Assembly: GCA_023700925.1 (NCBI GenBank)
Contig: JAMPXZ010000003.1
Coordinates: forward strand, 1-42,066
Source of the DNA: Oligoflexia bacterium
GTDB taxonomy: Bacteria > Bdellovibrionota > UBA1018
DNA length: 42,066 nucleotides
Direction: 5' to 3'
The stretch's first letter is position 1, and each line of letters opens with the position of its first letter. The position numbers and the translations under genes are program-made. Shown piece after piece: positions 4,591-42,066 of this stretch. Under the pieces are notes generated by a model that saw nothing but the letters and a program-made list of their open reading frames with translations, was not told where the DNA came from and did not search any database.

Positions 4591-5424
4591 TTAGCCCAGC
4601 AGCTTGAGAGTCGCCTGATTGGTCGAGTTGGCCTGGCTCAGCACCGAGATACCCGCCTGCATCAGGATGTTGTTCTTGGTCATCTCCGAGACCTCGTTGG
4701 CGAAGTCAGCGTCGCGGATGCGGCTGTTCGCGGCCGAAAGGTTCTCGTCGCTGATCGAGAGGTTGTTCACCGTCGACTGGAGCCGGTTCTGCATGGCGCC
4801 CAGATCGGCGCGGATGCTGTTGACCCGGATCAGGGCGTCGTCGATAACCGAGAGGCTGAGCTGCGAGCCTTGCTTGGTGGCCACGCTTTCGCCGCCGAGC
4901 TTGAGGGCGTCGAGCGTCGCATCCGACCTTTCGCCGTTGTAGACGACGCGGTCGAGGATCGGATTGTTCTGGATGCCGACCTGGATCTCGAAGATCCCGG
5001 CCTTGCCGTTCAAGAGAGGGGTCCCGTTGAACGCGGTCACGTTCGCGATCCGGTCGATTTCCTGCTTGAGCGACTGGAACTCACGGTCCGTGAACTGGCG
5101 TTCGGTGTCCCCGATCGTGTCCGACGCGGCCTGGATCGCCAGCTCGCGCAGGCGGACCAGGATGTTTGAAATCTCATTCAGGCCACCTTCGGAAACCTGG
5201 ATCAGCGACATGCCGTCCGAGGCGTTCCGTTTCGCCTGTCTGATCCCGCGGACCGAAGCCCGAAGGTTCTCGGAAATCGCCAAGCCCGCGGCGTCGTCGC
5301 CCGCGTGATTGATCCGGCTGCCGCTGGCGAGTTTTTCCAGCGTGCGGTCGAGATTCTCCCGAGTGTTGGTCATCTGTCTTTGCGCGTTCAGCGCAGTCGT
5401 ATTGGTCGCGATTCGCAAACCCAT
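4591..5424 (-). CDS. Flagellin (paralogue 1)
   Basis: MGLRIATNTTALNAQRQM...KLASGSRINHAGDDAAGLAISENLRAS and C-terminal NILMQAGISVLSQANSTNQATLKLLG. Confidence 0.97.
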   Translation of the reverse strand: MGLRIATNTTALNAQRQMTNTRENLDRTLEKLASGSRINHAGDDAAGLAISENLRASVRGIRQAKRNASDGMSLIQVSEGGLNEISNILVRLRELAIQAASDTIGDTERQFTDREFQSLKQEIDRIANVTAFNGTPLLNGKAGIFEIQVGIQNNPILDRVVYNGERSDATLDALKLGGESVATKQGSQLSLSVIDDALIRVNSIRADLGAMQNRLQSTVNNLSISDENLSAANSRIRDADFANEVSEMTKNNILMQAGISVLSQANSTNQATLKLLG

Positions 5425-5425
5425 A

Positions 5426-5440
5426 CTAGCCTCCGTTCAT
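5426..5440 (-). CDS. Putative leader mini-ORF (MNGG*) upstream of flagellin 1
   Basis: ATG AAC GGA GGC TAG, preceded by its own GGAGGA at ~8 nt; its codons contain the flagellin SD (GGAGG). Stop is 1 nt before the flagellin ATG. The same arrangement precedes flagellin 2. Confidence 0.4.
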   Translation of the reverse strand: MNGG

Positions 5441-5510
5441 AAGTACCATCCTCCGTGCGGCTCATCCCTTTCCCTAGGGATGACGAGCGTCCTTGCTCTT
5501 GTGTTGTTCG

Positions 5511-5561
5511 GGCGGGCGCGAGGCCCGCCTCCTACCTTCCCGCGCGGGACCATCCCGCGGG
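5511..5561 (-). terminator. Two adjacent GC-rich hairpins in the flagellin 2 / flagellin 1 intergenic gap
   Basis: GGCGGGC-gcgag-GCCCGCC and CCGCGCGGGA-cca-TCCCGCGG. There is no clear U-tract, so termination function is uncertain. Confidence 0.4.
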
Positions 5562-5587
5562 GGAAACCTGTGTCAGTTCTTTCTCCG

Positions 5588-6421
5588 TCAGCCCAGCAGC
5601 TTCAACGCCGCCGAGTTCGTGTTGTTCGCCTGGCTCAGGACCGAGATACCGGCCTGCATCAGGATGTTGTTCTTGGTCATCTCCGAGACCTCCTCGGCCA
5701 TATCCGTATCCCGGATGCGGCTGTTCGCGGAGGAGAGGTTCTCGTCGCTGATCGAGAGGTTGTTCACCGTCGACTGGAGCCGGTTCTGCATGGCGCCCAG
5801 ATCGGCGCGGATGCTGTTGACCCGGATCAGGCCGTCGTCGATCACCGAAAGGCTGAGCTGTGAGCCTTGCTTGGTGGCCACGCTTTCGCCGCCGAGCTTG
5901 AGGGCGTCGAGCGTCGCATCCGACCTTTCGCCGTTGTAGACCACGCGGTCGAGGATCGGATTGTTCTGGATGCCGACCTGGATCTCGAAGACTCCCGCTT
6001 TGCCGTTCAGGAGCGGGATGCCGTTGAACTGGGTGACGTTGGCGATCCGGTCGACTTCCTGCTTCAGCGACTGGAACTCGCGGTCAGCGAACTGTCGCTC
6101 GGTATCCCCGATCGTGTCCGATGCGGCCTGGATGGCCAGCTCGCGGAGTCGGATGAGGATGTTCGAAATCTCGTTCAGGCCGCCTTCGGAAACCTGGATC
6201 AGGGAGACCCCGTCCATCGCGTTGCGCTTGGCTTGCCTGATGCCGCGCACGGAAGCCCGAAGGTTCTCGGAGATCGCCAGTCCCGCGGCGTCGTCGCCCG
6301 CGTGATTGATCCGGCTGCCGCTGGCAAGACGTTCCAACGTCTTGTCGAGATTCTGCCGGGTCTGGGTCATCTGTCTTTGCGCGTTGAGCGCGGTGGTATT
6401 GGTTGCAATTCGCAAACCCAT
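5588..6421 (-). CDS. Flagellin (paralogue 2)
   Basis: Near-identical in length and sequence to the 4591-5424 protein. Canonical flagellin N- and C-termini. Confidence 0.97.
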   Translation of the reverse strand: MGLRIATNTTALNAQRQMTQTRQNLDKTLERLASGSRINHAGDDAAGLAISENLRASVRGIRQAKRNAMDGVSLIQVSEGGLNEISNILIRLRELAIQAASDTIGDTERQFADREFQSLKQEVDRIANVTQFNGIPLLNGKAGVFEIQVGIQNNPILDRVVYNGERSDATLDALKLGGESVATKQGSQLSLSVIDDGLIRVNSIRADLGAMQNRLQSTVNNLSISDENLSSANSRIRDTDMAEEVSEMTKNNILMQAGISVLSQANNTNSAALKLLG

Positions 6422-6422
6422 A

Positions 6423-6437
6423 CTAGCCTCCGTTCAT
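6423..6437 (-). CDS. Putative leader mini-ORF (MNGG*) upstream of flagellin 2
   Basis: ATGAACGGAGGCTAG as at 5426-5440, also with an upstream GGAGGA. Confidence 0.4.
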   Translation of the reverse strand: MNGG

Positions 6438-6761
6438 AAGCGCTGTCCTCCGTGTAGCTCATCCCTTTCCATAGGGATGACGAGCATCCATGCTCAATTT
6501 TGGTGCGTGGCGAGCTCGGCTCTCCGACGCGGTTATGTACTCCTGCTTTTCCTGCCCACGACTTGGCATCTCACACGGTCTTGCGAAGTCCCGCGAATCC
6601 CTTCGCGGGAGCCCACATCTGTCGCTCACGGGCGGTGCCTGGAGTGGGGGAGTTCCCCCTCGATCCGGCTCCTGCTTCGTGAGTCCGAAGCGGCTGGCGC
6701 GCGTTGCTCGCTCGGCGGCCGGGCCGTTTCCGCGGGATTCCCTTTTCAGGGTCGCTGGATC

Positions 6762-6801
6762 GGCCCGCCCGTTCCGCCGTCTTGGCGGTGCGGGGCGGGC
6801 C
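6762..6801 (-). terminator. Long GC-rich hairpin downstream of flagellin 3
   Basis: GGCCCGCCCGttCCGCC-gtctt-GGCGGtgCGGGGCGGGCC near-perfect inverted repeat in the non-coding gap. Confidence 0.45.
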
Positions 6802-6900
6802 TCTCCGGCAATCGGCCTTGTTCAGGCCTTATCCAGGAAACAGCTCAGGCAACGTGCCTTTGCTTCGGGTCAAACTTGGTTCATTCATTCCCCCATCTCA

Positions 6901-7749
6901 TCAACCTGCTCCTTGCCCCAGGAGACCCAGGGCGGCTTTGATCGTACTGTTCGCCTGGCTGAGTACCGACACGCCAGACTGCATCAGGATCTGATTCTTC
7001 GTCAGCTCGGTGGTCTCCTCGGCGATGTCCGCGTCGCGGATGCGGCTGTTGGCGGACGCGAGGTTCTCACGGCTGATCATGATGTTGTTGATCACGGACT
7101 GAAGCCGGTTCTGCATGGCGCCGAACTCGGCTCTCACGGCGGTCACCGAGCCCAGGGCCGTATCGATCGAGGCCAGCGAGTTCTGCGCGCTGAGCTTGTC
7201 GCCGACGCTCGAAAGGTTCAGTCCCAGCGCCACCACGTTGAGGTCGGCCGAGCTCGAGTCGAAGAGGCGGATGCGGTCGACGATCGGGTTGTTGCGGGTC
7301 CCGACCTGGATCTCGAAGGCGCTCGCCTTGCCGTTGAGCAGGGGAACCCGGTTGAATTCGGTGCTTTGCGCGATCCGGTCGATCTCCTCGATCAGCTGCT
7401 GGAACTCGACGTTCATGAACTGGCGTTCCTGCGGACCGACCGTGTCGGAGGCCGCCTGCACGCCCAGCTCGCGCATCCGGATGAGGATGTTGGAAATCTC
7501 GCCCATCGCGCTCTCGGCGACCTGGACGAGCGAGACGCCGTCCTGCGCGTTGCGCTCGGCCTGGCCGAGGCCGCGGATCTGGGAGCGAAGGCTTTCGGAG
7601 ATCGCCAATCCCGCGGCGTCGTCGCCGGCATGGTTGATCCGCGATCCCGAGCTCAATCTTTCGAGGGTTCTGTCGAGGGAGGAACGGGTGCCTCGCAAGT
7701 TTCGTTGCGCGACAAGGGAGGGTACGTTCGTATTGATCCGCAGTCCCAT
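6901..7749 (-). CDS. Flagellin (paralogue 3, divergent)
   Basis: MGLRINTNVPSLVAQRNL...LSSGSRINHAGDDAAGLAISESLRSQ...NQILMQSGVSVLSQANSTIKAALGLLG. Start set at the second in-frame ATG after GGAGG. Confidence 0.96.
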   Translation of the reverse strand: MGLRINTNVPSLVAQRNLRGTRSSLDRTLERLSSGSRINHAGDDAAGLAISESLRSQIRGLGQAERNAQDGVSLVQVAESAMGEISNILIRMRELGVQAASDTVGPQERQFMNVEFQQLIEEIDRIAQSTEFNRVPLLNGKASAFEIQVGTRNNPIVDRIRLFDSSSADLNVVALGLNLSSVGDKLSAQNSLASIDTALGSVTAVRAEFGAMQNRLQSVINNIMISRENLASANSRIRDADIAEETTELTKNQILMQSGVSVLSQANSTIKAALGLLGQGAG

Positions 7750-7869
7750 ACCTTCCTCCATGAAGGTGTTATGGCCAATCCTAGGCCGTATGGGGAACAG
7801 TGCCGTTTTCGGTCCGCTTCCCGGTTCACCTTCTTGGTGATCTGGGTTGCTTCACTGCTTCCAAGTAAC

Positions 7870-7906: not shown

Positions 7907-7960
7907 CGAAAAAAATAGCGCCCCGGAACAGCCCCCCTGTTCAGGGGGCGCTCCGGGGCG
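7907..7960 (-). terminator. Rho-independent terminator after the 7994-8287 gene
   Basis: Minus strand CGCCCCGGAgcGCCCCCTgaacAGGGGGGCtgtTCCGGGGCG followed by CTATTTTTTT. Confidence 0.85.
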
Positions 7961-7993: not shown

Positions 7994-8287
7994 TTAGGCA
8001 GCCTCAGCGTAATCCTCCGCATGCCAGTGGTCATAAAGGGTCTTGTTTTTCTCGTCGCGCAGCCATTTGGCCGCATGATCCGGCGGCTCCTGGCCAAGGC
8101 ACTTGTGGGAGAAGGCATGGACGGTCATCGTCTCGCCGGCGACCGACACCTTGTACTCGCCGTTGGGCTGCTTGGCGATCTTGCAGGTCTTGTTCGGATC
8201 GCTTACGAAATAGAGCGTTTGGCCATCCTTCAGGTATCCTTCATGAACCAGCGCGGTCAGATCGAATTTGCTCTTCTTTTTGGACAC
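7994..8287 (-). CDS. Small hypothetical protein, weak resemblance to RAMA-type domain
   Basis: MSKKKSKFDLTALVHEGYLKDGQTLYFVSDPNKTCKIAKQPNGEYKVSVAGETMTVHAFSHKCLGQEPPDHAAKWLR.... Good SD (AGGAGG) and followed by a strong terminator. Confidence 0.75.
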   Translation of the reverse strand: MSKKKSKFDLTALVHEGYLKDGQTLYFVSDPNKTCKIAKQPNGEYKVSVAGETMTVHAFSHKCLGQEPPDHAAKWLRDEKNKTLYDHWHAEDYAEAA

Positions 8288-8375
8288 TCGGTTCCTCCTT
8301 CTTTGGGTTGATTGCCACTACTGATATCGGCAAAATTTGCCGGGAATTATATGCCGGGCGCGTCGAAACCGCCCG

Positions 8376-9248
8376 TCAGGCCGCCCGCTTGTCGCCTTCG
8401 CCCGGCGCGTCGACGGTTTCGGTGGCCTTGGGTTCCTCGAGCGCATTGGTGCTCGTTTCGTTCCAGAGAATTTCCAGGGAAGTCGAGAAACGGTTGACCA
8501 GGTTGTAATAGACGCCATCCGCCGAGAGCACCGTGTTGACGAGGCTCATGCAAACCGAGAGCGCGATCCCGACGATCGACTTGATCATGGCGAGCGAGAT
8601 CTTGACCAGGAAGAGGTCCATGACCTTCTTGCTTTCCTCGATGTTGCCGAGGTCCATGCCGCCGAGGTCGGGCAGGCCCTTGGAGATCCCGAGGAACGTG
8701 CCGAAGATGCCGCCGATAATGAAAAGGCTCGGCAGGATGTTGATCAGCTCGTTGAGCGGCCCGACCGGGAAGATCCCGATCACCTTGTTGAAGACGGGGT
8801 TGTTGTCGAAGCTGGATTTCGCGATGTCGAGCATGCGGGGCGGGAAGCCCTCGCGCTTGAGGTAGCGAATCTGGCGAAGGGTGTCGCGTACCGTGAAGGC
8901 GGCGCCGTCCTGGATCAGGAAAACGCGATCGGTCACCGACGCGACGGCATCGAAGTTACGCCGCTTGAACTTGGCGCGCATCTCGAAGGACTCGTAATAG
9001 GTCTTCTCGAGTAGCGCCTTCGTCATCAGGAAGAAGGACTCGAGGCGCTTGGAGTCCGGACTCCAGAAGAACTTGCGGACCCGCTTCTCGAACTCGAAGC
9101 AGAACTTCAGCTCCGCCTTTGCCGTATAGTAGATGAGAGCCCGGAACAGCACCCCGACGAAGAAGGTCGCGATCATCACCGGCATCAGGATGCCGGCGAT
9201 CCGGTCGATCAGGGTGTTCATGATAAAATGGCTGATAGGGTCTAGCAT
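8376..9248 (-). CDS. MotA/TolQ/ExbB-like proton-channel family inner-membrane protein
   Basis: Hydrophobic N-terminal segment; later LPSLFIIGGIFGTFLGISKGL and FLVKISLAMIKSIVGIALSVCMSLVNTVLS match the MotA/TolQ/ExbB transmembrane core. Confidence 0.75.
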   Translation of the reverse strand: MLDPISHFIMNTLIDRIAGILMPVMIATFFVGVLFRALIYYTAKAELKFCFEFEKRVRKFFWSPDSKRLESFFLMTKALLEKTYYESFEMRAKFKRRNFDAVASVTDRVFLIQDGAAFTVRDTLRQIRYLKREGFPPRMLDIAKSSFDNNPVFNKVIGIFPVGPLNELINILPSLFIIGGIFGTFLGISKGLPDLGGMDLGNIEESKKVMDLFLVKISLAMIKSIVGIALSVCMSLVNTVLSADGVYYNLVNRFSTSLEILWNETSTNALEEPKATETVDAPGEGDKRAA

Positions 9249-9256
9249 GCTTGCTC

Positions 9257-10963
9257 CTATTCATCCCGCAGATTGAATTTGATGATGACGCGTTGGCCTT
9301 TTTTGCAGTCAAAGACCTTGCAATAGTTGCCGTCCCGCACCTGCGCCAGCTCGCGGCCCTTCAGGCGTTCGGTGGCCAGGTAGCTGCGGCCTGAGACCTT
9401 CACGAGCGGCAACAGGTCCTTCTGGTGCTGGAAGCTCATCTTCTTGGTGTCGAAGACGTGCTCGAAGATGGACTTGGCGCGCTGGTAGCTCAGATCCATG
9501 TTGAAGTTGACGGCGGCGCGGTCCGCGGGCGAGAGGCTGTCGGGATCGATGTATTTGTTCTGATAGGTGGGCGAGGCGAAGCCCACGATCTCCACCGAGC
9601 CGATCCGTCCGCTGATTTTCTGGTCCTGGAACAGGCTGTTGGCGTAGATCGGGATCATCCTCTCGAGCGTCGAGCGCATCCCCGTCTTGAGATCCGCGCG
9701 TCCCGTCTCGAAGTACTCGTTGGCGAAGTTGATGGTGACGTCCCCGGTCTTGATATCGACGTCCGCCTCGATCCCTGCCTTGGCGAAGTTGCGCTTGATG
9801 CCCTCGGCGAGGCGGCGCTGCTCGTTCAGCTTGTTCTGACTGGCGACCAGATTCCGCTGGAGGGTGTCGTTGGCCATCTTGAGGGAGTTGAGCGAGTTGT
9901 GGTACTGCCCCTCCATTGACCGGATATTGCCGCGGGTCTTCTCGAGCTCGCCGTTGAGGTTGGCGAGCTGGTCGTTGTATTCCTTGTTGCGCCGCTCGAC
10001 GTCGGCGCGATAGGCGCGCTCCTGGGCCAGCCTCGCTTCGGCGCTGAGCTGGGCCTTGGCGATGCCTTTTTCGAACGCCCCCTTCTCGCGGGCCATGGTT
10101 TCCTCATGCGCGCGCTTGAGCTCCGCGAGAGTGTCGCGATACTTGCCTTCCTTCTGGTTCAGCTCGCCGAGCAGGCGCTCGGTCTCGCGATTCTTCTGCT
10201 CGATCTCGCCCTGCGCCGTCTGGAGCTGGTTGGCGTAACGCGAGTTCTCCGAACGCAAGCCCTGGATCTGGCCCTCGCTCTCCTGACGGAGCTGGGAGAT
10301 GGCCTCCTGGAGCTTTTGCTCCGAATGTTGCTTGCTCTTGTAGACGCGTTTCACCTCGTCGATCTTCGTCGAGAGCTGCGACTCGATCTGCGCGATCGTC
10401 TGGTTGTTGCGCTCGATCTCGCCCTGTTTCTGGGCGATGCTGGCGTTGAGGGTGCCGAGTTCGCGTTCTTTGACCGCGATTTCGGCCTGTTTTTCCTCGA
10501 TCACGACGTCGCGCTTCTTCACGCGCGCCTGAGCGACGAGGTTCGCGCTGATGATATTCTTGACCAGCGCCTGATACTGGTTGAGGTCGCGCTCCTTCTG
10601 TGCCGCGTCCCGCGCTTGGCGCGAAAGATCCTTGCTCTTCTGCTTCGCCTCGTCCTCGAGCAGGTTCAGCTTGCCCATCAGCTCCTGATAGACCTGCACC
10701 TCATCCTCGGTCGCGCCTTCCTGAAGGTAACCGTCCCGAACGGCCTCGTAGGCCTGGATCTGCTTGCGAAGCGCGTCCGCCTCGACTTTGGCGTTCTTCA
10801 TCGCCGTGTGGGAAACGATCATCTGGGCGCCGCTTCGAAGATTCGCGATCACGTACAAGAGGAGGAAGACCACCGACAGCACCAGGAACAGGTCGCTGTA
10901 GGAGGTCCAATGGTTGCCCCCGTGCTCCACCTTGGCTCTGATTTTTTCGTAGTTAAGGTTCAA
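9257..10963 (-). CDS. MotB/OmpA-like protein with long coiled coil
   Basis: N-terminal single TM segment HWTSYSDLFLVLSVVFLLLYVIANL (MotB-like, with Asp), long Glu/Gln/Lys-rich coiled coil, C-terminal OmpA-like domain (YFETGRADLKTGMRSTLERMIPIYAN...VEIVGFASPTYQNKY...DLSYQRAKSIFEHVF). TTG start proposed; the ORF extends to 11044. Confidence 0.78.
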   Translation of the reverse strand: MNLNYEKIRAKVEHGGNHWTSYSDLFLVLSVVFLLLYVIANLRSGAQMIVSHTAMKNAKVEADALRKQIQAYEAVRDGYLQEGATEDEVQVYQELMGKLNLLEDEAKQKSKDLSRQARDAAQKERDLNQYQALVKNIISANLVAQARVKKRDVVIEEKQAEIAVKERELGTLNASIAQKQGEIERNNQTIAQIESQLSTKIDEVKRVYKSKQHSEQKLQEAISQLRQESEGQIQGLRSENSRYANQLQTAQGEIEQKNRETERLLGELNQKEGKYRDTLAELKRAHEETMAREKGAFEKGIAKAQLSAEARLAQERAYRADVERRNKEYNDQLANLNGELEKTRGNIRSMEGQYHNSLNSLKMANDTLQRNLVASQNKLNEQRRLAEGIKRNFAKAGIEADVDIKTGDVTINFANEYFETGRADLKTGMRSTLERMIPIYANSLFQDQKISGRIGSVEIVGFASPTYQNKYIDPDSLSPADRAAVNFNMDLSYQRAKSIFEHVFDTKKMSFQHQKDLLPLVKVSGRSYLATERLKGRELAQVRDGNYCKVFDCKKGQRVIIKFNLRDE

Positions 10964-11088
10964 GGCCGGTTCTCCGTGTCTCTCTGGCGGTATCGTCGGG
11001 TTTCGGGATCGGCTTGAATCTTTTTGGAAAAAGACATGACTCAATATGTCATTAAAGACCCGCGGCAGTTCAGCCGAAATAGGGAGTG

Positions 11089-13167
11089 ATGAAATATCGA
11101 ATAAAGATCCGCGTGATCAAAGAGGGGATGCAACCGCAAAAGTTCTCCATGAACTTGGAGGAGGGCGCCACCTTCACGGTCGGTGACTCCGTGCCGGGCA
11201 TCCAGGGCGAAGTCTGCGTCTTCCGCGTGAGTGACGGATCACTACTGGTGACCAAAGCCGAAAAAGGCTCTGACATCGTCGTGAACGGCATCGAAGGACG
11301 CGAGTTCCGGGTCAAGGTCGGAGACCAGCTCAAGAGCGCGACGACCGCGGTCGAGTTTCTCGATGTTCCGTGGCGCCAGGAAACGCCGGCGGAAACCCAG
11401 TTCATCGACGTCGCCAAGGCGGGCTTGCTGCCGCAGAAGGCGGCGGCTGAGCATCCAGCCGCGCCGGTCGTGGAGAGCGCTGAGGCGCTTGTGCCCGCGG
11501 CGCCTGCGGTGCCCGAGGCGCCCGTGGTGCCCGTGGCCGCCGCGAGCGAAGCGCCGAGCGAAGTGGTGCTGACTCCCCCGGAGACGCCCGTGGCGGTGGA
11601 GCTCGATATTCCGGAAGCGCGGAGAGCCGAAATCCCCGCGCACCGTGGGCGCGAGCGGGGATGGGAAGCCACCGATAGCGGCGTGCCGCGCGATAAAAGT
11701 TGGAGCGATCTCGGAGTTCAGGGCCATTCCTCGATGACCGAGAGCACCCGGCTCTTCCTGAAGAAAACGGAAGATGCCGAGATGGCCCGCAAGGAGCTGT
11801 TCAGTCTCTGCGGTCTCATGTTCCTGGCGCTCGGAGTCGCCGGAGGGGCCGCGCAGATGGGCTCCCCGCTGCTCTGGGGTTCGGCAGGGGTGATGTTCGG
11901 CCTGCTCTTCTCGGCGATCCTGCCGAGGCTGGCGGGGTTTACCGGAAGCACGGCGAGCTTCAGCGCTTACCTCCGCTTCATGACTTACTTCTATTTCGCG
12001 TTGATCCCGTGGGGGTTCGCGTTCCGCCTGCATCCGATTGCCGCGATCGTGGCGTCGGTCTTCGCCTGCGCGGGTTTCACGGCGGCCTTCATGATCCGGT
12101 TCAAGATCAGTTTCGGTCGCTTTTCGGCGGTAGGTGGCGCGGTCTCGCTGTTACCCATCGCGCTCGCGGCAGTCTCCTTGACCGACGGGTTCACGAATCT
12201 GCCGTTCCAGTGGAAAGGCGACGTCGCCCAGGGCTCTTCGTCCGAGGAGCTGGCCGCGCGGCAGCCGGCCTCCGAGTCGGGCGCGGTCGTGCTCGATCCC
12301 GCGGCTCCGGCGCAGGTGCAACCTCAAGCGCAGGCCCCGGCTCCCGTGCAGCCGCAGGCTCAACCGCTGGTTCCGGCGCAAGCTCCGGTCGCTGCCCAGG
12401 CGCCTATCACGGCTGAAGCTCCGGCTCCGCTGAACGCTCAAGCCTCTGTCGCGCCTCCGGTCCAGGCGCCGCTCCAGCCCCAGGGCCAGCTCCTGGCGCA
12501 ACCGGCGTTTCCGCCTCCGGCGCAGCCCGTGGCCCAGGCCCCGGTCCCTGTCCAGCAGGTTCAGGCACCGGCGTATTACGAGCAGACCGCGCGCCGGGGG
12601 GGTGAGGACGTAGGGGATCCCCTGGCCACCGAGCAGTTCTTCAGTGCCGCCAAGAAGGGTAATGTCAGCGTCGTCAAGGCGCTCATCGCAAAGAAGGCGG
12701 TCGATCCGAATTTCACCCTCGACAAGGGCAATACCGTGCTGATGTATGCTGCCGCCAATGGCCATACCCGGCTGGTGAAGTACCTGCTCTCTCAAAGGGT
12801 CAACGTCAATGCCCGCGACCCCAACGGCACCACCGCGCTGATGTGGGCGGTTTACAAGGGCCACACGGAGGTCGTGAACATCCTGCTGAAATCCCGCGCG
12901 GATACTTTCATCCGCCGCGACGACGGTGACCGCGCCATCGATATCGCCAAACGGTGGAAGCGATGGGACATCGCGGACCTTCTCGAAGGAAAGCCGCTGC
13001 GGACGATTGCCAGCAAACCTGCTTCGAGCAAGAAGGCGCCGAGCAAGAGCGGCTACCGGAAGCCCTCGTCCACAAGCAAGGGCGCTGGCAAGACCGCTGG
13101 CAAGACCGTCACAAAGCCGAGATCCGGTGACCGCAAGCACCGCGAAACCTACCGGGCAATTCGCTGA
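11089..13167 (+). CDS. Multidomain membrane protein: N-terminal beta/FHA-like region, TM segments, Pro/Gln/Ala-rich linker, ankyrin repeats, basic tail
   Basis: Ankyrin repeats GNTVLMYAAANGHTRLVKYLLSQRVNVNARDPNGTTALMWAVYKGHTEVVNILLKSRADTFIRRDDGDRAIDIAKRW; several hydrophobic segments around codons 240-370; PQAQAPAPVQPQ linker; SKKAPSKSGYRKPSS tail. Confidence 0.8.
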   Translation: MKYRIKIRVIKEGMQPQKFSMNLEEGATFTVGDSVPGIQGEVCVFRVSDGSLLVTKAEKGSDIVVNGIEGREFRVKVGDQLKSATTAVEFLDVPWRQETPAETQFIDVAKAGLLPQKAAAEHPAAPVVESAEALVPAAPAVPEAPVVPVAAASEAPSEVVLTPPETPVAVELDIPEARRAEIPAHRGRERGWEATDSGVPRDKSWSDLGVQGHSSMTESTRLFLKKTEDAEMARKELFSLCGLMFLALGVAGGAAQMGSPLLWGSAGVMFGLLFSAILPRLAGFTGSTASFSAYLRFMTYFYFALIPWGFAFRLHPIAAIVASVFACAGFTAAFMIRFKISFGRFSAVGGAVSLLPIALAAVSLTDGFTNLPFQWKGDVAQGSSSEELAARQPASESGAVVLDPAAPAQVQPQAQAPAPVQPQAQPLVPAQAPVAAQAPITAEAPAPLNAQASVAPPVQAPLQPQGQLLAQPAFPPPAQPVAQAPVPVQQVQAPAYYEQTARRGGEDVGDPLATEQFFSAAKKGNVSVVKALIAKKAVDPNFTLDKGNTVLMYAAANGHTRLVKYLLSQRVNVNARDPNGTTALMWAVYKGHTEVVNILLKSRADTFIRRDDGDRAIDIAKRWKRWDIADLLEGKPLRTIASKPASSKKAPSKSGYRKPSSTSKGAGKTAGKTVTKPRSGDRKHRETYRAIR

Positions 13168-13189: not shown

Positions 13190-14104
13190 ATGGATTCCCT
13201 CCACTTCGAGCCGATCAGCGGCAAAGAGGCGCACGCCGAGTTCGTCGCATTGCTGAACTCGTGTTTTCCCGTGCCCCGAGGGCATTCTTTTCTCGAGGAC
13301 TTTCCGGTCTGGGGAGTGCTGGAGCCGGATACGCATTTCTACATCGGGGGCTACTCGAGCGGGCGACTCGTCGCGGCTGCCGCGGCGCGGACGGCCGAGC
13401 TGATTACCGAAGGTGCACCGTTGCCGATCGGTTTGATCGGTGCCGTGGCGACGCATTCCAGCTGCCGGGGACGCGGCTTCGCCTCCCAGGCGACCGCTCA
13501 GGTGCTCGATTGGCTCGCGCGCAGGCGGGTCGCGCTCGCCGTGCTTTGGGGCTCCGAACATGAGCTCTATCGCCGGATGGGGTTTGAACTTTGCGGAATT
13601 CAGACGACGCTCCCCCTGTGGCAGCTGCAGCTGCCGTCGGATGCGCCGCGTCCCGGACGGGGCTGGGTTCCGGGACTGTGGGAGCGCTTGAAGCGCCGCG
13701 GCTCGGGACTGCAGTACGGCGAAAAAGACCGTTCCTGGTTGGAAGCTCATGCCAATGTCCAGTGGTACTGGCTTGGGGAGCCCTCGAAGCCCACGGCCTA
13801 TGCGGCGTTAGGCCGTGGAATTGACCTCGGAGGCCTGGTTCACGAGTGGGGAGGGGATCCCGAGGCGCTTCGCAGCCTGCTTAGCGCGGTGAGGGCGGAG
13901 GTCCCCGGGGCCGCCTTATTGGGGTCGCCCCGCTTGTTTGAGAAATTCCGTCTGGTCTGCTCTCCGGGGACGCCCGTCCCTGAGGAGCAGTTTCTCTGCA
14001 TGGCCCGCTTCATGGCTCTTTCCGAAGACCCCGAACGGGTTTATAGCTTGCTCGGTGAGAAGGGCGCCTCGCCTCTGTGGTTTTGGGGTCTCGACGGGGC
14101 CTGA
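13190..14104 (+). CDS. GNAT-family N-acetyltransferase
   Basis: IGLIGAVATHSSCRGRGFASQATAQVLDWLARRRVALAVLWGSEHELYRRMGFELCG matches the GNAT acetyl-CoA binding core. Confidence 0.85.
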   Translation: MDSLHFEPISGKEAHAEFVALLNSCFPVPRGHSFLEDFPVWGVLEPDTHFYIGGYSSGRLVAAAAARTAELITEGAPLPIGLIGAVATHSSCRGRGFASQATAQVLDWLARRRVALAVLWGSEHELYRRMGFELCGIQTTLPLWQLQLPSDAPRPGRGWVPGLWERLKRRGSGLQYGEKDRSWLEAHANVQWYWLGEPSKPTAYAALGRGIDLGGLVHEWGGDPEALRSLLSAVRAEVPGAALLGSPRLFEKFRLVCSPGTPVPEEQFLCMARFMALSEDPERVYSLLGEKGASPLWFWGLDGA

Positions 14105-40256: not shown

Positions 40257-40871
40257 GTGAGCCGCAAAAGACAAGAACATCAACTCACGCTTCCCGGACT
40301 GACAAAACGAACGCGTATCCTCGCGCACGGGGGCGACCTCACTCAGGGCAAGCGCAAAACGGCGCGCCCCTTTGACCGCAAGCAGGCGCTTCACGTGGTG
40401 CTGCGCTCGAGCAAGGCCCGCGGCGAGCGCTCATTGCTGCATCCCCGGCACTGCAATCACGTCCGCGCGCTCACTGAGCGGCTTGCGAAACGCTGGGGAA
40501 TCGCGGTGTATCGCTACGCGAACGTGGGGAATCACCTGCACCTGCTTGTCCGCGCGCGGTCCCGCGCCGCCTGGCAGGGCTTTATCCGTGAGCTCTCCGG
40601 CGGAATCGCGATGCTCGTGACGGGCGCACGCAAAGGCCAGGGGCTGCCGCGTGAAAAGGCGGAGCTGCCGCGCGGGTTCTGGGATCATCTGGTTTTCAGC
40701 CGAATCGTGTCGTACGGTCGCGATTTCGCGGGCGTCGCCAGGTATGTTTGCACGAACCTTTGGGAAGGCGCGGGGGTTCCGGTGAGAAAATACCTCGCGC
40801 GTGGGTACCGGGTTCTGGAGATCTCGGAAGATGGAGCGTTTCTGCTTGAGCAGCGCGCGGGGCCGGCTTAG
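40257..40871 (+). mobile_element. REP-associated tyrosine transposase-like (Y1/HUH) protein
   Basis: HVVLRSSKARGERSLLHPRHCNHVRALTERLAKRWGIAVYRYANVGNHLHLLVRARSR (HxH motif) and VARYVCTNLWEGAG (candidate catalytic Tyr, YVxxN). GTG start. Confidence 0.82.
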
Positions 40872-41944
40872 CCGTCACTTTTCATTGGCTGCAAAGGAGC
40901 GGGGACGGAGATACGGGGTGCCGCAGCGGGTGGTGTCTTGGCAGGAACGGCTGAAGAGGAGGCCGCGGCGACGGGCGCAGGAGCGGCCGGGATAGAAGCC
41001 GTTGGCGGGGCTTGAGTCGCGACTGTGGAAGCAGGCGCGGTAGCGGCGGCGGCAGTCTCAGTAGTGGCGGCGGGAGCAGTAGGCGTAGCAGCACCGCTGG
41101 CGGCAGCCGTAGCAGAACCTGCGGCAGGCGGACTAGCACTAAGCGGACTAGCACCACCAGCCTCAGCGGCAGGCGCGCGGTGCGCGGCGTTGTCGGGGAA
41201 GGGGATGAAATCCACTTGCGGCTCCAGGATGCGGATGACGACGCGGCGGTTCTGGGCGAGGGCGTACTCGTCGAGCGTGCCGGCGGGCGTGCGATTCTGG
41301 ACGAGGGGACGCGTGTCACCGTAGCCGATCGCGGTGAGGCGGTCGGAGTGGAAGTTCTTGGCGAGGAACATTCGCACCACCCGCGCCGCGCGGGCGCCGG
41401 AGAGCTCCCAGTTTGAGGGGAAGGTGCCACCGAGGATGGGTCGACTGTCGGTGTGGCCTTCGACGACGATGCGGTACGCCTTCTTCTCGGCGGTCTGGCG
41501 GCTGAAGATCGAATCGATCAGGCGCTCGAGGACCACGCGCCCCTGGGGCCGGACGTCAGCGCTCAGGGTGTCGAAGAAGACTGTCGATTGAAATGCGACG
41601 GTGACGCCGAGGGCGTCCGAGAGCACGGTGGCTTCCTTGTCGATGCCGTTCTCGTTGAGCACGGCGGTGAGGAACTTGCCGAGCTCGGTCGTCGCGGGAC
41701 CGTTGTACTCGATGCCGAAGGACTTGGCCATCGCCTCCTTGACCTTCTCGAACTTGTTGTCGTCGAGCTTGGCCATGCTGAAGAGCATGATGAAAAAGCC
41801 GCAAAGCAGCGTCATCATGTCAGCATAGGAGATTAGCCAGTTCCCCTCGTCATGCGCCTCGGGGCCGTGCTTGGGCTCCTCCTTGGAGCGCCGGTGCTGC
41901 TCCTCGATGCGCTTCGCTTCTTTGAGGAACTTCCTTACGGACAT
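40868..41944 (-). CDS. motB: Flagellar motor protein MotB with Pro/Ala/Thr-rich C-terminal tail
   Basis: EGNWLISYADMMTLLCGFFIMLFSMAKLD plus OmpA-like domain (IVVEGHTDSRPILGGTFPSNWELSGARAARVVRMFL...AIGYGDTRPL...NRRVVIRI). Confidence 0.93.
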   Translation of the reverse strand: MSVRKFLKEAKRIEEQHRRSKEEPKHGPEAHDEGNWLISYADMMTLLCGFFIMLFSMAKLDDNKFEKVKEAMAKSFGIEYNGPATTELGKFLTAVLNENGIDKEATVLSDALGVTVAFQSTVFFDTLSADVRPQGRVVLERLIDSIFSRQTAEKKAYRIVVEGHTDSRPILGGTFPSNWELSGARAARVVRMFLAKNFHSDRLTAIGYGDTRPLVQNRTPAGTLDEYALAQNRRVVIRILEPQVDFIPFPDNAAHRAPAAEAGGASPLSASPPAAGSATAAASGAATPTAPAATTETAAAATAPASTVATQAPPTASIPAAPAPVAAASSSAVPAKTPPAAAPRISVPAPLQPMKSDG

Positions 41945-41956
41945 CCCGGGTTACCT

Positions 41957-42066
41957 CTAGGCGGCCTTGTTCTTGACGACGCGATCCTTCGGCAAGAGAT
42001 ACGAGTTCAGTCCCTCGCGCAGCGAGATCGGGTTCACCTGTGACTTGAGCATGATGGCGCCCTCGA
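41957..42066 (-). CDS. motA: MotA C-terminus, truncated by window edge
   Basis: Minus-strand translation EGAIMLKSQVNPISLREGLNSYLLPKDRVVKNKAA*, MotA-like C-terminus directly upstream of motB. Confidence 0.75.
   Translation of the reverse strand, partial: EGAIMLKSQVNPISLREGLNSYLLPKDRVVKNKAA

Follow-up and report, generated by a model that had tools for sequence, protein, structure and literature searches.

Ion-driven motors built on a 5:2 plan power flagella and gliding, take part in nutrient uptake and phage defence and help to maintain the outer membrane; every family added to the class reveals a further way to couple an ion gradient to work. The ZorAB pair of Zorya and the flagellar stator MotAB are analogues for an arrangement in which a pentamer of A subunits surrounds a B dimer and passes ions (PMC11890865; PMC9389320). 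Here we profile a B-A gene pair from the window, by which we mean the whole 42,066-nt stretch of DNA analysed (Table 1), together with its relatives in the same phylum. The pair represents a distinct and apparently undescribed family of Bdellovibrio-type bacteria: no description was found in the open-access papers searched, in line with the suggestion of the first-pass annotation of this DNA that the motor might be undescribed. With moderate confidence, we favour a signal-gated, ion-driven envelope motor belonging to a separate, chromosomal, ZorAB-related family, with regulated envelope work as its most likely role; it is probably not a system of phage defence.

Table 1. Coordinates of the B-A module and adjacent features in the window
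Feature	Position	Strand	Evidence or detail
Intrinsic terminator 3' of the 97-aa gene	7919-7960	minus	Hairpin of -42 kcal/mol, z = -4.9, followed by a U run
97-aa protein, adjacent, judged outside the module	7994-8287	minus	Distribution among relatives
ZorA/TolQ-like A subunit with three TM helices (290 aa)	8376-9248	minus	Profile, fold, tree
Conserved putative ion-channel core of A (TM2-TM3, residues 166-245)	8514-8753	minus	Alignment, ZorA profile match
B subunit, MotB/ZorB-like	9257-10963	minus	568 aa, TTG start
OmpA-like head of B, mixed alpha/beta in the model	9260-9775	minus	Profile, alignment, AlphaFold2
Rod of B, predicted to be helical and periplasmic (residues ~45-396)	9776-10831	minus	AlphaFold2, low to medium confidence
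Codon of Asp24 in the B TM helix, predicted ion-carrying residue	10892-10894	minus	Alignment
Divergent neighbour whose product combines a degenerate FHA-like N-domain with several TM helices and with ankyrin repeats	11086-13167	plus	Neighbourhood census, profile comparison

The B and A genes and their surroundings

The B subunit carries 'HWTSYSDLFLVLSVVFLLLYVIANL' (Asp24) in its single transmembrane (TM) helix, which is preceded by positively charged residues. This Asp is equivalent to D24 of ZorB, a residue required for defence (PMC11890865); it is invariant across the 15 aligned B proteins (15/15), and a TM Asp is present in 58 of the approximately 60 B proteins with a readable N-terminus. 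AlphaFold2 places helices at residues 20-79, 86-211, 215-303 and 308-396 (about 350 helical residues), after which the head follows. If straight, the predicted rod would extend to about 52 nm at 0.15 nm per residue, an upper limit given the breaks between helices (at about 80-85, 212-214 and 304-307) and the low-to-medium confidence of the N-terminal half of the model. Rod length is strongly variable among relatives of B, and one locus (L049, 10248-15560) encodes a B of roughly 1,750 residues, most of which are predicted to form rod; as a straight helix this would far exceed the width of the periplasm.

The head of B contains an NxxLSxxRA motif and an invariant CxxxxC pair (C548 and C553), the latter found near the C-terminus in all 67 of the B heads compared. 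There are no cysteines in the canonical ZorB control, and none in the matching region of the short B at locus L147. With respect to the residues through which ZorB binds peptidoglycan (a GHxD/S motif and an Arg), Ser464 and Arg495 are kept and the His is replaced by Phe462, a substitution found in most of the clade that includes the FHA-partnered loci, whereas the cNMP clade retains His. Peptidoglycan binding by the head is thus plausible from NxxLSxxRA and Ser464, but uncertain, because the His required in ZorB is the residue replaced. In a separate observation, one family member (L046, 7947-8801 and downstream) encodes a B with Ala in place of the TM Asp, without a rod and without a partner; it may be a natural variant in which motor function has perhaps been lost.

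The A gene starts 8 bp after the B stop codon. Its product contains GGIFGTFLGI and is modelled as helical with good confidence (mean pLDDT 84), with three hydrophobic segments; the chain ends about 50 residues past TM3, with a low-confidence final 18 residues and no long tail of the ZorA type. Invariant residues are R36, P173, G180, G183, T184, F185, G187, L192, F213, M221, S224, G227, I228, S231, N238 and W262, among which P173, G183-T184, S224, S231 and N238 lie in the putative channel core. Both features of the motor superfamily are therefore found, namely a MotA/TolQ/ExbB-type A and a single-TM, Asp-bearing B, and the first-pass annotation, which had described B as a single TM with Asp, a coiled coil of ~300 residues and then an OmpA-like domain, and had proposed testing for the conserved Asp, agrees with these results.

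Its account of the surroundings fared less evenly. The strong terminator that it proposed is supported by the hairpin in Table 1; a simple pattern scan returned no terminator on the minus strand, and a promoter scan returned no promoter. The 97-aa gene, which it had counted in the operon, we reject as a member of the module: this gene occurs in 47 of 58 relatives, many of them motor-less, is mostly found on other contigs, and lies about 3 kb or less from flagellin in at least 17 genomes of the same family (e.g. G003:C12, G015:C83, G020:C51, G025:C3 and G028:C6). It is flagellin-linked, and its place downstream of the motor operon in this genus is incidental. Its product has a weak match to the RAMA domain (E = 0.0017). 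Three tandem flagellin genes, two of them very similar in sequence, occupy 4591-7761 (minus strand). The 'true motAB' assigned to 40868-42066 comprises a complete MotB, but only the last 35 or so codons of motA (41945-42066, minus strand), the rest lying beyond the contig end. Finally, the inventory was right for B and A but missed the divergent gene beyond B, a conserved neighbour in the subclade to which the window belongs.

Kinship to ZorAB, distribution and gene neighbours

Several lines of comparison converge on ZorAB. In PADLOC searches B matched ZorB1 at 1e-23 and A matched ZorA1 at 1e-5, and the A and B of a second genome (G169) gave 6e-12 and 7e-30. Against solved structures, the A-family profile yielded significant matches only to ZorA proteins (best 2.2e-7), mainly over the two channel helices, and the B profile matched ZorB best (2.9e-8). 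A fold search with the A model returned ZorA first (8qyk, prob 1.00, TM 0.45, with E = 2.5e-3, above 0.001), then TolQ/ExbB, and with the B model ZorB was the sole significant match (8vvn_A, 1.1e-6). Single-sequence Pfam scores fell below cut-off, both for A with MotA_ExbB (PF01618; 15.5 vs 22.9 bits) and for B with MotB_plug (14.7 vs 24); ExbD/TolR (PF02472) gave no match to B in Pfam or PADLOC, where MotB_plug was weak and ZorB strong. Together, the profile and fold matches indicate that the initial assignment of A to the MotA/TolQ/ExbB fold class is right, and that ZorAB is the nearest described relative of the pair.

That kinship stops well short of identity. Scores with the NCBIfam ZorA and ZorB models are far under cut-off (24.8 bits where 100 are required, and 28.8 where 400 are), none of 231 genomes of the phylum passes the ZorA2 cut-off, and PADLOC found no match to the Zorya effectors ZorC, ZorD or ZorE in the neighbours tested. 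As a control, a viral contig (L154, 3902-7571) encodes a canonical Zorya II-like system, with a tailed ZorA, then ZorB, then ZorE, scoring 346 (ZorA2), 249 and 247 bits; the window A scores only 13 bits for ZorA2. The control is also under the strict NCBIfam cut-offs, yet scores roughly tenfold higher than the window pair, so that the contrast in score carries more weight than the cut-off itself.

A tree of 73 A-type proteins places the family in one clade (62 rows, 99/99) apart from the tailed ZorA-like proteins. Proteins from the same genome that we labelled MotA-, TolQ-, ExbB- or AglR-like by their sequence lie across a further supported split from both; there are several long branches among the references, and joins of that kind could be spurious. 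The family clade divides into a cNMP-partner clade (17 rows, 100/100) and a 44-row clade (99/97), the latter comprising FHA-partner loci and the window's subclade of eight (100/98). The proposal of a second, non-flagellar module resembling an ion motor is borne out by these matches to ZorAB and by the separation of A from MotA; of the likenesses drawn to ZorAB and AglRQS, the former stands as closest by profile and fold, while the AglR-like protein falls across the supported split.

The search for relatives covered one phylum, in which the A profile detected family members in 122 of 235 good-quality genomes. No match to the pair was found in plasmid and phage records, and the sole relative found on a viral contig is the Zorya II pair with ZorE described above. 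One genome (G169, a single contig of 3,782,950 bp), which from its length we take to be that of B. bacteriovorus HD100, carries a three-gene B-A-FHA operon at 1,107,724-1,112,616, and nearly all genomes of its genus have the motor. The motor is absent from G062 (2,657,893 bp) and G064 (3,435,933 + 1,973 bp), which by size are presumably P. exovorus JSS and H. marinus SJ, both predators, and is present in two flagellin-negative genomes (G252 and G254); its presence thus tracks neither predation strictly nor flagella. Two other genomes (G133 and G144; L116-L121) hold three copies each, from different subclades and in some cases without a recognised partner. The genome of the window also encodes a second, different, tail-less ZorAB-like pair (L153, contig C187, about 13860-14087), conserved in the genus, whose A is 282-287 aa long; in a sister genome (L147) a 231-aa OmpA-type B follows.

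We compared 67 loci, which were picked for spread from many families and are not independent; at 66 of them the gene right before A is B. The gene downstream encodes an FHA/coiled-coil/TM protein at 35 of these loci, and a cNMP-binding protein of about 150 aa at a further 16 (in one case on the other strand); at seven, no partner is recognised beside B-A, and the degenerate-looking L046 is one more such locus. As the partner models derive from sequences at these very loci, detection of partners is partly by construction, although this does not hold for their positions. The FHA partner carries a TM helix and reaches into the periplasm at one end, and its phospho-threonine signature is intact in 30 of the 37 FHA-model matches checked. 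In the window's subclade, a divergent FHA-like/TM/ankyrin gene with one to several TM helices adjoins B-A at all eight loci. Pfam reports no FHA domain in the window's copy. When profiles are compared, a moderate FHA-like match emerges, at 84.5% probability and with E = 7e-6 for one comparison; the phosphothreonine-binding signature has been lost. This conserved neighbourhood is suggestive of a functional link between partner and motor.

Proposed mechanism and competing explanations

By homology with ZorAB and MotAB, five A subunits would form an ion channel around the TM helices of two B subunits, and Asp24 would carry the ion past a polar ring of conserved Thr and Ser from TM2-TM3 of A. The rod and OmpA-like head of B could then link the inner membrane to peptidoglycan or the outer membrane and pass on force or torque: were the head held by the wall, A would turn, whereas a head bound to a mobile partner would let B transmit force. 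The neighbour, be it the FHA, cNMP-binding or FHA-like/TM/ankyrin protein, may gate the motor, perhaps through direct contact, or be its target. It is the separate FHA protein, and not A, that bears long cytoplasmic coiled coils here, so this partner may substitute for the tail of ZorA.

An unlikely though possible alternative is that the complex is a sensor and not an engine, with the rod and head detecting strain in peptidoglycan or the envelope, the A/B channel opening in response, and the FHA or cNMP partner producing a cytoplasmic signal. ZorAB itself has been proposed to sense wall disturbance (PMC11890865), signalling-type partners adjoin B-A at 51 of 67 loci, and the membrane-spanning FHA protein with its periplasmic end would suit such a role. 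Nevertheless, the pair retains Asp24 and the polar residues of the channel just as force-generating relatives do, and a passive sensor has no obvious need of them.

We think it rather unlikely that the pair serves as a motor for gliding or predation, with the rod coupled to outer-membrane or surface structures to move cells or open prey. The family is kept in the genome of a presumed model predator (G169), and in nearly all of that genus, where it is paired with readers of signals, but it is missing from G062 and G064, the presumed genomes of the predators named above. Many family members are, moreover, environmental genomes without a known lifestyle. The gliding motor of Bdellovibrio is stated to be unidentified (PMC13104615), and the present work supplies a concrete set of B. 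bacteriovorus genes; the Myxococcus gliding complex pairs a TolQR-like motor with the FHA/TM protein GltG (PMC3169522); however, agl-type genes are already candidates for gliding (PMC3169522).

A reduced Zorya-like anti-phage system, the reading to which ZorA and ZorB as closest relatives might first point, is quite improbable, and a defence role, one of those raised in the first-pass annotation, is not favoured. The pair lacks ZorC, ZorD and ZorE, the ZorA tail and the ZorA-first gene order, and has conserved signalling partners in place of nucleases or other effectors; it is chromosomal, with no copies in plasmid or phage records, and both the phylum-wide ZorA2 search and the gulf between 13 bits and the 346 bits (with ZorE) of the canonical control argue against it. 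A ZorB-like match alone should not, we caution, be annotated as phage defence. That the pair is an accessory flagellar stator or flagellin-linked device is very improbable indeed: the 42-kb window also holds flagellin genes and motB, and the flagellin-linked 97-aa gene sits between the motor and the flagellins, but this adjacency of motor and flagellins was observed in one genus alone, the motor is retained by flagellin-negative genomes, and A is outside the MotA side of the tree.

We therefore return to a signal-gated envelope motor as the preferred reading. More speculatively, and only as a tentative extension, the family might constitute a third branch of 5:2 motors beside the flagellar/Tol-Exb and Zorya branches, in which a B dimer forms a periplasmic shaft of hundreds to about 1,500 residues under the control of a phosphorylation or cyclic-nucleotide switch, and which in Bdellovibrio could power surface movement or prey handling, unrecognised until now.

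Comparison with described motors

Among described systems, GldLM/PorLM of Bacteroidota gliding and type 9 secretion also bear a long periplasmic extension on the B-type subunit, but GldM is not known to have an OmpA-like head, unlike B here, and GldLM was not matched among the solved structures found with the A and B profiles. The MotAB/PomAB stators share an Asp-bearing B helix, an OmpA-like head and a predicted ion-driven A pentamer with the window pair; they differ in that the window A is under the MotA_ExbB cut-off and apart from MotA in the tree, and its motor persists in flagellin-negative genomes. AglRQS with GltG, the core of Myxococcus gliding, is likewise a TolQ-like motor genetically tied to an FHA/TM protein, although AglQ and AglS are B subunits of the ExbD/TolR type, GltG ends in a TonB-like domain, and the A proteins fall on opposite sides of the tree.

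Zorya ZorAB remains closest, as the best profile and fold match for both subunits, with a W-x-x-Y-x-D-L motif in B, an OmpA-like head and a TM2-TM3 core in common. The window module departs from it in having an A without a cytoplasmic tail, the order B-A, a B with a long rod and CxxxxC, and an FHA, cNMP or FHA-like/ankyrin partner in place of ZorC/D/E, and in being chromosomal and widespread in the phylum. As initially noted, the rod belongs to B rather than A: the long lever would be periplasmic here, where that of ZorA is cytoplasmic.
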